A DNA stretch of 64,000 bases from Pseudomonas sp. LRP2-20. Lineage in GTDB: Bacteria > Pseudomonadota > Gammaproteobacteria > Pseudomonadales > Pseudomonadaceae. The notes under the pieces were generated by a model. It was not told where the DNA came from. It saw only the letters and a program-made list of their open reading frames with translations, and did no database searches. Location of the stretch: positions 4,780,001 through 4,844,000 of the forward strand of contig NZ_AP025944.1 of assembly GCF_024349685.1 (NCBI RefSeq). The letters are read 5' to 3'. The position numbers and the translations under genes were made by a program. This document shows, in pieces, positions 11,437 to 50,965 of the stretch; position 1 is the stretch's first letter, and each line of letters begins with the position of its first letter.

Positions 11437-13701
11437 ATGGAATGGCTGGGTCTGCAACTGTTCACCGAGCTGCCGGTTACCGGGCGCATCGTCATCAACT
11501 GCCGCCATGAACCGCTACTGGTCCTGATCGCCTTTGCGGTGGCCAGTGCAGCCTGCTTTGCCACCCTCGACATGGCGGAGCGCCAATCCCACAGCGAACA
11601 CCCCGCCGCGCAACGGCAATGGCGCATGCTCGGTGCCTGCTGCCTGGCAGGCGGCATCTGGGCCATGCACTTCATCAGCATGCTGGCCTTCCAGGCCCCG
11701 GTTGAAATGCACTACGACGTGTCGCTGACCGGCCTTTCGCTGCTGATCGCACTGCTGGTGGCCTGGATGGCGATGGCCAGCCTCGACCGCATCCACATGC
11801 GTCTGCACCACTACCTGCAAAGCGCCCTGCTCATCGGGCTGGGCATCATCCTGATGCATTTCGTCGGCATGGCTGCGCTGCAGACCGGTGCCCAGCAGTA
11901 CTACCAGACCAGCCTGCTGCTGGGCAGCGCTGCCATCGCCCTGCTGACCAGCCTGGCTGCCTTGCTGCTGGCCCGTTACTTCCGCAACGGCAGCGGTACC
12001 CTGCACCAGACCTTGAAATATGGCGCCAGCCTGCTGATGGCCGGCGGCATCATCGCCACACATTTCACCGCCATGGCTGCCATGACCTTGGTGATTCCGG
12101 CCTCTGCTGCCCTGAGCCTGCCATCCGGAGACAACAGCCTGCAGTTGGGACTGACCGTGGCCTTCATCACCTTGCTGATCAGCGGCAGCAGCATCAGCGC
12201 CGCCCTGGCCGACAAGAAGCTGCAAAGCAAGGAGGACGACCTGCGCCGCTACGGTGTGCTGCTCAGCCAACTGGACCAGGCCCGCGCGTCACTGCAGCAG
12301 GCAGCTCACTATGATGCCCTGACCAATCTGGTCAACCGCCGCGGTTTCAACCAGATCTTCGCCGAGCGCCTGGCGGAACTGGACCCTGGCGAAAGCCGCC
12401 TGGCATTGATGTTCCTCGACATCGACCACTTCAAGCGGATCAACGACAGCCTCGGCCACGACGCCGGCGACGAATTGCTCAAGGTGATCGCCAACCACAT
12501 CAAGGCTGCCACCCGCAGTCATGATCTGGTCGCCCGCTTCGGCGGCGACGAGTTCTGCGTGGTCACCAGCCTCAACAACCGCGACGAGGCCCGCCACCTG
12601 GCCCAGCGCATCATGCAGCGGATGAAGGATCCGATCGATCTGGGTGGCCGGCGCATGGTCATGACCACCAGCATTGGCATCAGCATTTTCCCTGATGACG
12701 GCCTGACAGCTGAAGAATTGCTCAAGCATGCCGACCTGGCCCTCTACCAGTCCAAGGGCAGCGGGCGCAACAGCCTGCACTTTTTCAACAGCAGCCTGAA
12801 AAGCCATGCCAGCCTGGCACTGCAACTGGAAGAGGAACTGCGCATTGCCCTGCTTGAAGAACGCGGCCTGTGCGTGCATTACCAGCCAATCTTCGACCTG
12901 CGCACTGGCCAGGTGGCCAAGCTCGAAGCGTTGGTGCGCTGGCAGCACCCACTGCACGGGCTGATGGGACCTGACCGGTTCATCGGCATCGCCGAAGCCA
13001 ACGGCCTGATCGTCGACCTCGACCTGTGGGTGTTGCGCCGTGCCTGCCAGGACCTGACCCGGCTTCACCAACATGGTTTTGCCAGCCTCAAGGTCACGGT
13101 CAATTGCTCGGCGGTGACCCTGGGCGATGAAAGCCTGCCCAACGAAGTGGAAGTGGCGTTGTTCCAGGCGGGCCTGGCACCTCGCCATCTGGAGCTCGAA
13201 GTCACCGAAAATGCCCTGATGGGTGATATCCAGCAGACCGTCGCTCTGCTCAAGCGCATCCGTGGCCAGGGCGTCGGCCTGTCGATCGACGATTTCGGCA
13301 CCGGCTATTCGTCGCTGGCCTACCTCAAGCGCCTGCCCTTGGACGTGCTGAAGATCGACCGCAGCTTCCTGCAGGATGTGCCCGCCAGCCCCAAGGATCG
13401 CGAAATCATCCAGGCCATCATCGCCATGGCCCACACCCTGCATCTGGAAGTGGTCAGCGAAGGCGTCGAAACCGTCGAGCAACACGAATTCCTGGCCAGC
13501 AACGGCTGCGATTACCTGCAGGGCTACCTGCTCAGCCGCCCGGTGCCGATGAGCGAGCTGCGCCCGCTGCTTGACCAGCTCGACCGCCAGGACACGGTAT
13601 TCATCCCTTGTTGCGATACAGCTCTACCAGGGTCGCCGGATCTTTTTGCAGATAGCCCTGGCTACCGTGCAGGCGCATCAACTGCGCGGCGAGGCCACTG
13701 A
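11437..13701 (+). CDS. MHYT-GGDEF-EAL membrane cyclic-di-GMP protein
   Basis: A 754-residue protein. Residues ~15-265 form an MHYT sensor of about seven helices with repeated H/M-rich motifs (WAMHFISMLAF, LMHFVGMAAL, IATHFTAMAAM) that may bind copper or sense gases. A GGDEF domain follows with an intact RFGGDEF (369-373), then an EAL domain with EAL at 497-499 and DDFGTGYSS. Both catalytic sites look intact. The layout is that of MucR/YkoW-type proteins, slightly longer. The last 101 bases overlap the convergent reductase gene, so the C-terminal tail (PCCDTALPGSP and on) is unusual. Confidence 0.92.
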   Translation: MEWLGLQLFTELPVTGRIVINCRHEPLLVLIAFAVASAACFATLDMAERQSHSEHPAAQRQWRMLGACCLAGGIWAMHFISMLAFQAPVEMHYDVSLTGLSLLIALLVAWMAMASLDRIHMRLHHYLQSALLIGLGIILMHFVGMAALQTGAQQYYQTSLLLGSAAIALLTSLAALLLARYFRNGSGTLHQTLKYGASLLMAGGIIATHFTAMAAMTLVIPASAALSLPSGDNSLQLGLTVAFITLLISGSSISAALADKKLQSKEDDLRRYGVLLSQLDQARASLQQAAHYDALTNLVNRRGFNQIFAERLAELDPGESRLALMFLDIDHFKRINDSLGHDAGDELLKVIANHIKAATRSHDLVARFGGDEFCVVTSLNNRDEARHLAQRIMQRMKDPIDLGGRRMVMTTSIGISIFPDDGLTAEELLKHADLALYQSKGSGRNSLHFFNSSLKSHASLALQLEEELRIALLEERGLCVHYQPIFDLRTGQVAKLEALVRWQHPLHGLMGPDRFIGIAEANGLIVDLDLWVLRRACQDLTRLHQHGFASLKVTVNCSAVTLGDESLPNEVEVALFQAGLAPRHLELEVTENALMGDIQQTVALLKRIRGQGVGLSIDDFGTGYSSLAYLKRLPLDVLKIDRSFLQDVPASPKDREIIQAIIAMAHTLHLEVVSEGVETVEQHEFLASNGCDYLQGYLLSRPVPMSELRPLLDQLDRQDTVFIPCCDTALPGSPDLFADSPGYRAGASTARRGH

Positions 13702-14488
13702 GCGGCGTGGCTGCGCCCTGCTCGCGGGAAAGTTTGACAGCACCGTCGAGGTCCTTGAGCAACGTGCGCACATGCCACTTGATCGGTTCGAAACGGCTTT
13801 CGGCCATTTGCGGTGCCAGGATCTGCAGCGGCTTCGAATCGGCAAAGCCACCAGCAAGGGCTTCAGCGATCAAGGTGGCGTCGACGCCTGACTGCTCGGC
13901 CAGTGCCACCACCTCGGCGATGACCAACGCATTGCAGGCCACGATCATCTGATTGCAGGCCTTGGTCACCTGCCCTGCCCCCACCCCGCCCATGTGCGTC
14001 ACCCGTTGGCCGAGCACCTGCAGAACCGGGCGCGCACGCTGCAGGTCAGTGGCATCGCCGCCCACCATGATCGCCAAGGTCCCCGCCTCGGCCCCTGGCG
14101 TGCCGCCGGATACCGGCGCATCCAGCCAGGCCATGCCGCACAGCGCAGCCAGCTCGGCCGCCATTTCCCGGGTAGCGGTCGGCTCGAGGCTGGAGAAGTC
14201 CACCAGTAGCTGCCCCCTGCGCCCGCCCTCGGCGATGCCTTGCTCGCCAAACACCACCTCACGCACCACCGCCGTGTCGGCCAGGCACAGCAGCACCATG
14301 TCGCTGTCACGGCACAACTCGGCGGGGCTGGCAGCCAAGCGCGCACCTGCGGCCACCAATGCGGCGCATTTGTCCGGGCTGCGGTTCCAGACCGTCAGCG
14401 GATAACCCGCAGCCAACAGGCGCTGGCACATCGGCAAGCCCATAAGGCCAATCCCGGCAAATCCCAGCGAAGGCAGTGCAGTACTCAT
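13601..14488 (-). CDS. 3-hydroxyisobutyrate dehydrogenase-family reductase
   Basis: A 295-residue NAD(P)-dependent beta-hydroxyacid dehydrogenase. The Rossmann motif GFAGIGLMGLPMCQRLLAAGY is at the N terminus, the substrate-binding DAPVSGGTPGAEAGTLAIMVGG lies mid-protein, and the catalytic lysine is in GQVTKACNQMIVA. The C terminus (DPATLVELYRNKG) is typical for the family, which includes tartronate semialdehyde reductases. The exact substrate cannot be fixed. The gene's 3' end overlaps the convergent MHYT gene by 101 bp. Confidence 0.9.
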   Translation of the reverse strand: MSTALPSLGFAGIGLMGLPMCQRLLAAGYPLTVWNRSPDKCAALVAAGARLAASPAELCRDSDMVLLCLADTAVVREVVFGEQGIAEGGRRGQLLVDFSSLEPTATREMAAELAALCGMAWLDAPVSGGTPGAEAGTLAIMVGGDATDLQRARPVLQVLGQRVTHMGGVGAGQVTKACNQMIVACNALVIAEVVALAEQSGVDATLIAEALAGGFADSKPLQILAPQMAESRFEPIKWHVRTLLKDLDGAVKLSREQGAATPLSGLAAQLMRLHGSQGYLQKDPATLVELYRNKG

Positions 14489-14686: not shown

Positions 14687-16861
14687 ATGACCTCTACGAA
14701 CACTTCTGCCAATGCGGTTTCCGAGCCTTCGACTCTGCCCAACCCCAATGGTGTTCGTGACACGCTGCCAGCACGCAGCTCAGCCACCCAGCAGTACCTG
14801 TACTTCACCGAGCAGGACATCCAGCGCATCCTCGACAATCTCGACGGCTTGCGTGACTTGGTGTTTCCCAGCAACCAGCACATCGATGACGATGAACAAC
14901 TGCGCATGGAGCAGCAGTTCCCATCGGTGTGCCTGATCGGCCTGGGCCGTTGCGGCTCCAACATCGCCTTGGACGTGGCTGAACTGGTCTACAACGCCCG
15001 CACGTTCTTCCTCAATGAGTTCAACAACGAGGACCGCCTCAAGGGCGAATCGGGCTACAGCCCGGCGCGCTGGATCCGCCAGAACCTGCGCCTGGTGCAG
15101 AACAAGGGGGCCAAGCCGGTGTTCCTGGTCGAACCGCTGGTAATGCTCGGCGACCTGGACAAGGACATCGCCGGGCGCATCCGTTTCTCGCGCAAGGGCG
15201 AACGTGGCGAGTTCCTGCGCGACTACAGCAAGATGAAGATCATGGACCTGTCCGAGGTGCATGCAGGCGGTGCCGGTAACGCGCCGATCCTCGGCCAGTA
15301 CCTGGCGAAGATCATCCTCAACAAGGACACCCAGCGTTTCTCCAGTGCCGACTGGAAACTGATCCACTCGTACCTGATCGACTCCTGCGGCATCAAGGCC
15401 AACCAGTCGCGGCTGTACTTCTACATCTTCAGTGCCGGTGGTGGTACCGGCTCCGGCATGGCTTCGGAGTTCGGCCTGGCCCAACAGTACTCGTACATGA
15501 ACAAGACCTTCGACACCAAGCCGGCCGACGAGAACGATGGCAAGGGTGGGCACTCGTTCGTCTTCGAGCCGATCTTCACCAGCGGCATCTGCGTGCTGCC
15601 CAATGCTACGGATCATCGCAGCGAGATGTCCGAAGCCCTGCACATCAACGCCGGCCGGCTATTGTGCAAATACCTGTCGGAAGAATGGGACTTCTCTTAT
15701 AACTTCGATAATGAAGACAGCAGCGAAGCCAGCGTGATGGGCCGTATCCGCCCATGGAACGCGATGATGCTGATCTCCAACGACATCATGCGCTACGCCG
15801 AAGAAAGCGATGACGGCACCATCCACAATATCGACGTCAACGCCATGGAGAAGCACGCCAACCAGTACATCTCCCAGCAGATCTTCAACATCCTCACCGC
15901 CCAGGCGGTGACTACCGACTACGACCAGAACTACTTCCGCCGCGCCGGTATCGACATCGGCGAAACCATCCGCCTGGACGCCAACGACCTGTTCATGAGC
16001 CTGGCCGGCCCGGTAGCCATTGCCTACGCCGAGTCGGTGGTGCCCGAGGCGCCCGCCCAGGGTTCGGACAAGTTCAAGGTGTTCGAGCGCGAAACCCCAC
16101 GGTTGGACATCGATGACCTGTTCTTGCGCTCAATCGACCTGCCGCATTTCAACAAGCAGACCCAGGCCATCGAAGGCATCAGCCTGCTGCCGATCGAGTC
16201 GCGCCGCTACCGCGCGGCCCTGGAGCAATACCAGGCTTCGGGTTACGACGCGGCGGCGCTGCATGACCTGCACTTCTTCAAGAACTGCTCGTCGGTAGTG
16301 TCGATCGTTTCGCTGCCCAAGGACTACAAGCTGTCGTACATGGACCTCAACCGGCTCAAGACCCACCTCAACAGCCTGTTCCCCAATACCACGCTCAAGC
16401 GCTATGCGCTGGTGATCGGTGCCTCGGCCAACCTGTCGCTGACCACCCTGATCGCCAAGAGCCCGTGCCTGTCGGACGATTTCCTGACCCTGATCGTGGC
16501 CTTCATCAAGCGCTGCTTTGCCCGTACGCCGTACCGTTTCGATGACACCCTGGACAACGCCATCCTCGAGTTCATCACCAGCGAACATTTCGCGGAGGAG
16601 CGGATCGACGACCTGCTGAACGAGTTCGAAAACCCGGCGAAGATCCTCGACACCAACTGGTACGCGATCAAGCCGATGTACGAGAAGAAGTACCGCGAGT
16701 TGATCAACGACAAGAGCCGCTTCGTGTCGATCAACGATATCCGCCTGTCGCGTGAATGTGTGAAGAAGGCCGTGAAGTACCTGCGCGAGATATTCCGCCA
16801 CCGCATCGGCAAGACTCGGGTGATTTCGCTGAACAGCCACACCGGCCGGGTCGATTACTGA
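14687..16861 (+). CDS. FtsZ/tubulin-superfamily GTPase-like protein
   Basis: A 724-residue protein with the signature loops of the FtsZ/tubulin fold in the right order. T1-like GLGRCGSN is at 85-92; the tubulin signature GGGTGSG (T4) at 251-257 within FSAGGGTGSGMASEFG; a guanine-contact Asn-Asp at 365-366 in MMLISNDIMRYAEE (compare FtsZ IPNDKLL); and a T7-like LDAND at 430-434, where Asp431 and Asp434 match the two catalytic aspartates of FtsZ NxDFAD. The T1-T4 spacing is about 75 residues longer than in FtsZ, and ~280 residues follow T7. No signal peptide or membrane segment. It appears monocistronic. It is not the cell-division FtsZ. The polymer and role are unknown; family membership is my inference from motifs. 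Confidence 0.8.
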   Translation: MTSTNTSANAVSEPSTLPNPNGVRDTLPARSSATQQYLYFTEQDIQRILDNLDGLRDLVFPSNQHIDDDEQLRMEQQFPSVCLIGLGRCGSNIALDVAELVYNARTFFLNEFNNEDRLKGESGYSPARWIRQNLRLVQNKGAKPVFLVEPLVMLGDLDKDIAGRIRFSRKGERGEFLRDYSKMKIMDLSEVHAGGAGNAPILGQYLAKIILNKDTQRFSSADWKLIHSYLIDSCGIKANQSRLYFYIFSAGGGTGSGMASEFGLAQQYSYMNKTFDTKPADENDGKGGHSFVFEPIFTSGICVLPNATDHRSEMSEALHINAGRLLCKYLSEEWDFSYNFDNEDSSEASVMGRIRPWNAMMLISNDIMRYAEESDDGTIHNIDVNAMEKHANQYISQQIFNILTAQAVTTDYDQNYFRRAGIDIGETIRLDANDLFMSLAGPVAIAYAESVVPEAPAQGSDKFKVFERETPRLDIDDLFLRSIDLPHFNKQTQAIEGISLLPIESRRYRAALEQYQASGYDAAALHDLHFFKNCSSVVSIVSLPKDYKLSYMDLNRLKTHLNSLFPNTTLKRYALVIGASANLSLTTLIAKSPCLSDDFLTLIVAFIKRCFARTPYRFDDTLDNAILEFITSEHFAEERIDDLLNEFENPAKILDTNWYAIKPMYEKKYRELINDKSRFVSINDIRLSRECVKKAVKYLREIFRHRIGKTRVISLNSHTGRVDY

Positions 16862-16868
16862 TACTGCC

Positions 16869-17076
16869 AGGGCCGCTGCGCGGCCCATCGCGGGCAAGCC
16901 TGCTCCCACAGGGAATGCGGACCGCTTGCGAACTCAGTTCTCTACGCGACAGCGCAGCCCACAGGGCTGGGTGATCTCCCACAGGGTTCTGTGTAGATCC
17001 TGAAGGCAGCGCCAGTCCTTTGGGAGCGGCGGTGCGGCGATCCGACTTGCCCGCGATGGACTGCACAGCGGCCCCA
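16869..17076. repeat. Degenerate REP pair in the gap after the FtsZ-like gene
   Basis: The left arm (16869-16912) holds the hairpin GGGCCGC-TGC-GCGGCCC followed by CGCGGGCAAGCCTGCTCCCACAG; the hairpin may terminate the FtsZ-like gene, whose stop is 8 bases upstream. The right arm (17019-17076) is a decayed inverse copy (TTTGGGAGCGGCGG ... CTTGCCCGCGATGG). Between 17077 and 17208 I see no further gene or motif. Confidence 0.6.
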
Positions 17077-22865: not shown

Positions 22866-22961
22866 CGGCCTCTTCGCGGGCAAGCCCGCTCCCACAGGTT
22901 CTGCAGAGTTTCAGAACCTGTGGGATCCCTGTGGGAGCGGGCTTGCCCGCGAAGAAGCCGG
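22866..22961. repeat. REP inverted pair (GCAAGC type)
   Basis: The left arm, 22866-22898, and right arm, 22928-22961, are near-perfect inverse copies of the P. putida REP (CTTCGCGGGCAAGCCCGCTCCCACAGG). They are separated by a 29-base spacer containing a smaller imperfect inverted repeat. The pair lies just downstream of the bra terminator. Confidence 0.9.
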
Positions 22962-50868: not shown

Positions 50869-50965
50869 GCCTGCTTCGCGGGCAAGCCCGCTCCCACAGG
50901 GACTGCAAAAGGCTTGAAACCTACGCGATCCCTGTGGGAGCGGGTTTACCCGCGAAGAAACCAGC
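50869..50965. repeat. REP inverted pair (mixed type)
   Basis: The left arm (50869-50900) carries CGCGGGCAAGCCCGCTCCCACAGG; the right arm (50931-50965) is its inverse but reads GGGTTTACCCGCGAAGAAACC, so the loop-proximal residues differ. It lies between the cspA terminator and the 3' end of apbC. Confidence 0.88.

Follow-up and report, generated by a model that had tools for sequence, protein, structure and literature searches.

The stretch of Pseudomonas sp. LRP2-20 DNA analysed here (the window; 64,000 nucleotides) contains an open reading frame (ORF) with an ATG start at 14687–16861 of the + strand, whose 724-amino-acid product fits FtsZl2, a kind of protein already described in 2010 (PMC2875224) and recognised here by the features given in the part of that paper that treats the family. 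Judging from its conserved motifs and its genomic setting, we consider it probable that this FtsZl2 member makes guanosine triphosphate (GTP)-dependent head-to-tail filaments and has an accessory, non-division role, as a scaffold or positioning device, beside canonical FtsZ. A sequence-only reading of the window had presented the gene as an 'orphan' of the FtsZ/tubulin superfamily encoding a cytoskeletal or membrane-remodelling filament; what it observed was confirmed, and what it concluded is partly supported. The word orphan suits the gene neighbourhood and not the family, which numbers 673 relatives at E ≤ 1e-3 among 7999 scored candidates.

Conserved motifs and their spacing

Four FtsZ/tubulin landmarks follow one another in the order and at the residues (85, 251, 364 and 430) that the sequence-only reading had given: the T1 loop GLGRCGSN (residues 85–92; 14939–14962), the T4 loop GGGTGSG (residues 251–257; 15437–15457), the T6 region SNDIMRY (residues 364–370; 15776–15796), which was assigned by eye against PNEKLL of the FtsZ of the same genome and whose start places the Asn-Asp pair at N365–D366, and the T7 loop LDAND (residues 430–434; 15974–15988), in which D431 and D434 would activate the GTPase (features of the protein are all encoded on the + strand). 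In an alignment of 71 rows (A2; 55–94% identity to the LRP2-20 query), G85, G87–N92, G251–S256, S364, N365, D366 and R429–D434 are invariant, the two T7 acids thus being kept in 71/71 rows, and L86 and G257 are nearly so, in agreement with the earlier claim that the motif set is not a product of chance. The T4 loop of the P. putida orthologue P0003 reads GGGTGSR rather than GGGTGSG. Invariant columns make up 42% and 50% of two motif-bearing stretches, 38% of residues 431–595 and 29% (35/121) of a C-terminal extension (residues 596–716; 16472–16834), and none of the 34 columns of a variable N-terminal tail (residues 1–34; 14687–14788). DNA matching the GGGTG(S/T)G pattern is present at only two places in the whole genome, one in the FtsZl2-kind gene and one in ftsZ; because its reversed control was found 17 times, the pattern alone is not rare, and the evidence therefore rests on the conserved motif set within one long ORF.

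Two further core elements can be placed with less certainty. A probable T3 loop, GGAGNAPILG (residues 194–203; 15266–15295), falls on GAGANPEVG of FtsZ in a weak local hhalign alignment that holds T1, T3 and T4 in register and T6 and T7 out of register, and a long helix predicted by both structure models at residues ~384–408 (15836–15910) was taken as core helix H7. The spacing of the motifs is longer than in the FtsZ of the same genome, both from T1 to T4 (166 versus 88 residues, the 78 extra residues coming close to the ~75 claimed before) and from T4 to T6 (113 versus 59).

Relation to described families

Makarova and Koonin found the proteobacterial FtsZl2 family by a GGGTG(S/T)G search, with PFL_1302 of Pseudomonas fluorescens Pf-5 as its type (PMC2875224). 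As far as their section on the family goes, its members possess T1, T4, T6, T7 and H7, with T1 and T4 spaced apart by inserts, and a C-terminal region of about 300 amino acids, without recognised relatives and of mixed α/β rather than coiled-coil character, and come with neither associated genes nor a functional clue. Set against that description, the LRP2-20 protein comes from the same genus and shows the GGGTG(S/T)G loop, recognisable T1, T4, T6, T7 and H7, T1–T4 inserts, a C-terminal region of similar length (294 residues beyond residue 430, with strands and helices predicted by both models) and a solitary locus, and no difference was found in the features compared. The assignment is made by description, with the P. 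protegens FD6 orthologue (87% identical, same locus) standing in for the type protein. We take Pf-5 to be now classed in P. protegens.

The family is therefore not new, and what is added here is its wider distribution, the comparison of its conservation with that of FtsZ, the empty sites described below and a disputed indication, from structure prediction, of the FtsZ C-terminal-domain fold in a portion of the C-terminal region. An experimental study of FtsZl2 since 2010 was not found in the open-licence literature, a search that did not cover subscription journals or preprints. One candidate, PMC7327170, was rejected, as the portion of its text that had matched 'FtsZl2' shows FtsZ L272E, the name of a mutant. 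A 2023 study left the Tubulin_2 'FtsZ-like' proteins out of its main trees, according to the part of it that deals with them (PMC9871819).

Superfamily profiles touch the protein below their curated cut-offs: Tubulin_2 (PF13809) matches residues 194–367 (E 8.5e-4, 19.1 bits; cut-off 27 bits) and Tubulin matches at E 1.7e-3 (19.1 bits; cut-off 33 bits), so that the tubulin relationship expected in a profile hidden Markov model search appeared without reaching the threshold. Ten other divergent members behave alike (Pfam, E ≤ 0.1), with Tubulin matching 10/10 and Tubulin_2 7/10, none above the cut-off, and DUF6562 matching 5/10 at a level similar to the Tubulin profiles. These scores fit the fact that relatives are mostly not named as tubulins: among the names shown, most are 'hypothetical' or 'uncharacterized', and UniRef names containing 'Tubulin like' or 'Tubulin-like protein' belong to three relatives (P0109, P0126 and P0143). 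NCBIfam and PADLOC gave no match for the 724-amino-acid protein, PHROGs gave two rows only (E 0.26 and 0.49), and sequence searches against solved structures gave no FtsZ/tubulin-superfamily match. Ribosomal L23 rows within the last 65 residues (E 0.27 to 0.91) were taken as chance.

The likeness to FtsZl1/Tubulin_2 thus consists of a weak, sub-cut-off match, and the LRP2-20 protein differs in keeping T6, H7 and T7, counterparts of which could not be identified in FtsZl1 according to the section of the family paper that treats it (PMC2875224). A von Willebrand factor A (vWA), kinase or OmpA-like neighbour was seen neither by eye in the neighbour tables nor by Pfam in five neighbours in the window. 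The protein is also longer than TubZ and CetZ, and differs from both in having no relatives in plasmid or phage collections. CetZ is archaeal.

Predicted structure and filament formation

In FtsZ and tubulin, T7 acts on the neighbouring subunit. Since the FtsZl2 kind shows no variation in T1, T4, T6 or the two T7 acids, the GTPase would by analogy be completed between subunits, and filaments would follow: each subunit would hold GTP in its T1–T6 pocket, D431 and D434 in the T7 loop of the adjoining subunit would complete the active site, assembly would be head-to-tail and GTP-dependent, and hydrolysis would drive disassembly. The ~120 extra C-terminal residues may serve as the protein's own docking surface, dispensing with a partner gene or an FtsZ-type peptide, for a filament that would work alongside FtsZ.

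Several observations weigh against this proposal and favour a GTP-binding tubulin relative that does not polymerise, in which the inserts and the extension would cap the filament interfaces and leave a nucleotide-dependent switch or adaptor. The longer core spacing given above is one; another is that the authors of the family paper raised a non-polymerising option, in the passage concerned with FtsZl1 (PMC2875224). The third comes from the structure models. In the full-length model, which is of low confidence, residues ~430–595 (putative FtsZ/TubZ-type C-terminal domain; residues 430–595, 15974–16471) adopt the FtsZ/TubZ C-terminal-domain fold and the best structural rows include TubZ, the GTPase domain being unresolved; a second, cropped model (residues 376–724 only, and thus without the GTPase domain) scored better and lacks the FtsZ C-terminal fold, and its VIA list has no FtsZ-family row, an absence that does not exclude the fold. 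Because the two models disagree, the fold of this region is unsettled: the FtsZ C-terminal domain is possibly present, as a disputed hint, and the tubulin-like fold expected from the sequence-only reading is borne out by the C-terminal half of the full-length model and not by the cropped one. Why a monomeric switch should keep its T7 acids invariant in all 71 rows is not obvious, and we regard this alternative as unlikely.

The extension is mostly helical in both models. It includes a basic amphipathic stretch at residues 685–705 (16739–16801), found in a hydrophobic-moment scan, which holds the top four hydrophobic moments among the protein's 18-residue windows and has a net charge of +4 and a low mean hydrophobicity; because of the latter, membrane binding by this stretch is possible but not favoured.

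Coexistence with canonical FtsZ

Canonical FtsZ was found in 21/21 tested genomes that carry the gene or its remains. This would suit an auxiliary division factor that regulates FtsZ or polymerises together with it, though nearly all bacteria have FtsZ anyway. The LRP2-20 protein shares with FtsZ the order of T1, T4, T6 and T7 and possibly, given the disagreement of the models, the C-terminal domain, but it is longer (724 versus 398 amino acids), an FtsZ-type C-terminal partner-binding peptide was not found in it, and its gene lies outside the division cluster, the separate ftsZ of the same genome being ~249 kb distant and beside an FtsA-like ORF (named by eye). Against a part in division stand also the absence of the gene from a quarter of the sampled genus genomes (9/36) and the opinion of Makarova and Koonin, in their section on FtsZl2, that direct involvement in division is unlikely (PMC2875224). 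We hold an accessory division protein to be distinctly improbable; the solitary locus, the patchy presence and the coexistence with FtsZ argue instead for an accessory role outside division.

Distribution, descent and selection

The spread across Pseudomonas, left to be explored by the sequence-only reading, proved to be wide and incomplete: the gene is present in 27/36 sampled genomes of the genus (LRP2-20 included) and in 28/57 genomes of that whole sample. Samples of the order, class and phylum, LRP2-20 counted in each, gave 23/390, 2/369 and 9/398, respectively. One of the nine phylum-sample copies is broken (locus L159 in genome G787, a more distant gammaproteobacterium), consisting of pieces with internal stops. 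The gene occurs in 29/48 genomes of the family of G562 and in 2/6 and 1/3 of two other families, so that it is spread patchily in gammaproteobacteria outside Pseudomonas. A scan of genome contigs confirmed at least 523 relatives among 596 stretches; 79 of the best 80 confirmed stretches are labelled Pseudomonas and one belongs to a Paucimonas metagenome-assembled genome.

A quick tree of the 71 rows, made without bootstrap and with 21 forks below 80 support, contains clades of Pseudomonas sensu lato, of Cellvibrio and of Rheinheimera/Arsukibacterium/Alishewanella/Alkalimonas (support 80); Celerinatantimonas and one Paraglaciecola row are nested in Marinomonas, and Atopomonas stands separate from Pseudomonas. 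This clade pattern with misplaced rows suggests mostly vertical descent with some transfer.

The gene is under purifying selection, the ratio of nonsynonymous to synonymous substitution rates (dN/dS) being 0.04–0.17 against 10 of the 80 orthologues. Within the genus (G664, G774 and G789), FtsZ is more conserved than the FtsZl2-kind protein (86–89% versus 80–81% identity), and between genera the picture is mixed, with 76% (G092), 69% (G562) and 60% (G048) identity for the FtsZl2-kind protein versus 66%, 60% and 66% for FtsZ; its conservation is therefore comparable with that of FtsZ and not higher throughout.

Genomic context

The genome is a single contig of 6.03 Mb, and the gene is thus chromosomal. 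We detected no relative in collections of plasmids (72,556 records) or phages (50,697 records; both tblastn, E ≤ 1e-5), nor in a viral-contig scan with two peptide patterns. The presence of TubZ among the best structural rows of the full-length model would accord with a chromosomally captured filament of the TubZ or PhuZ type that transports the DNA of plasmids or phages. Besides these empty searches, a fixed setting speaks against such an origin, rapA upstream and braC downstream both being present in 64/80 loci, and a DNA-binding partner was not recognised by eye among the neighbours; a captured DNA-moving filament is accordingly very improbable indeed.

Neighbours were clustered from script-called ORFs of 101 loci (the window, 80 contig-scan loci and 20 stretches from other genomes); an antisense ORF longer than the gene is present in 13/101, where the gene ORF was forced in. 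No partner gene common to the genera emerged from the 45 largest neighbour clusters or the ±5-gene tables of 21 loci, and only common domain families (e.g. GGDEF/EAL and ABC ATPases) recur near the gene across genera. A same-strand ORF of at least 100 amino acids within 60 bp is lacking downstream in 88/95 loci and upstream in 98/100. Collections and neighbour tables thus agree with the earlier description of a chromosomal gene that stands alone. Footprinting upstream of the gene (the window and 31 loci) gave no motif that could be named.

In P. protegens FD6 the order is that of the window, namely RapA, an MHYT-GGDEF-EAL protein, a dehydrogenase, the FtsZl2-kind gene, DUF2288 and a branched-chain amino acid binding protein, which we take to be BraC (domains checked by Pfam on the window copies), with two further ORFs after rapA. 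Among family genomes without the gene, 12/12 keep the DUF2288 neighbour; in all six empty sites examined the DUF2288–braC region is present, accompanied in four of the stretches by rapA. The gene has therefore been gained or lost at a fixed site of the chromosome.

In 73/101 loci, a protein with a GGDEF-like motif is encoded no more than six called ORFs away from the gene. In the 80 contig-scan loci this is the single MHYT-GGDEF-EAL neighbour (upstream in 65), and in six of 11 Marinomonas-like loci (L144, L147–L150 and L158; Pfam domains from the L148 copy) an ammonium transporter-PAS-GGDEF-EAL gene is the next ORF, three times upstream and three times downstream. As GGDEF domains are abundant (35 to 62 per genome in each of 15 genomes) and the loci share descent, this neighbourhood was not counted as an association; the GGDEF-EAL gene is also kept in three of six Pseudomonas loci examined that do not have the FtsZl2-kind gene. 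A link to cyclic-di-GMP signalling through GGDEF/EAL neighbours in two genera is conceivable but weak.

In the window, the MHYT-GGDEF-EAL ORF (11437–13701, + strand) and the dehydrogenase ORF (13601–14488, − strand) overlap tail-to-tail by ~100 bp upstream of the gene. A 24-base element occurs five times in the window (≤ 3 mismatches; shuffles expect 0), as a single site (16889–16912) and two inverted pairs (22875–22951 and 50877–50954), the single site sitting in one arm of a 36-nucleotide, 83% inverted repeat (16870–16905/17039–17074). The element resembles the REP elements of Pseudomonas.

Significance

A bolder form of the proposal, in which the protein would be an old chromosomal tubulin homologue of gammaproteobacteria that forms a solitary and self-contained cytomotive filament, outside division and with the ~120-residue extension in place of adaptor proteins, is conceivable though in our view rather doubtful. 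To our knowledge, a function has been demonstrated for few bacterial tubulin homologues. The present one occurs in soil pseudomonads, which are genetically tractable, and its conservation between genera is roughly that of FtsZ.
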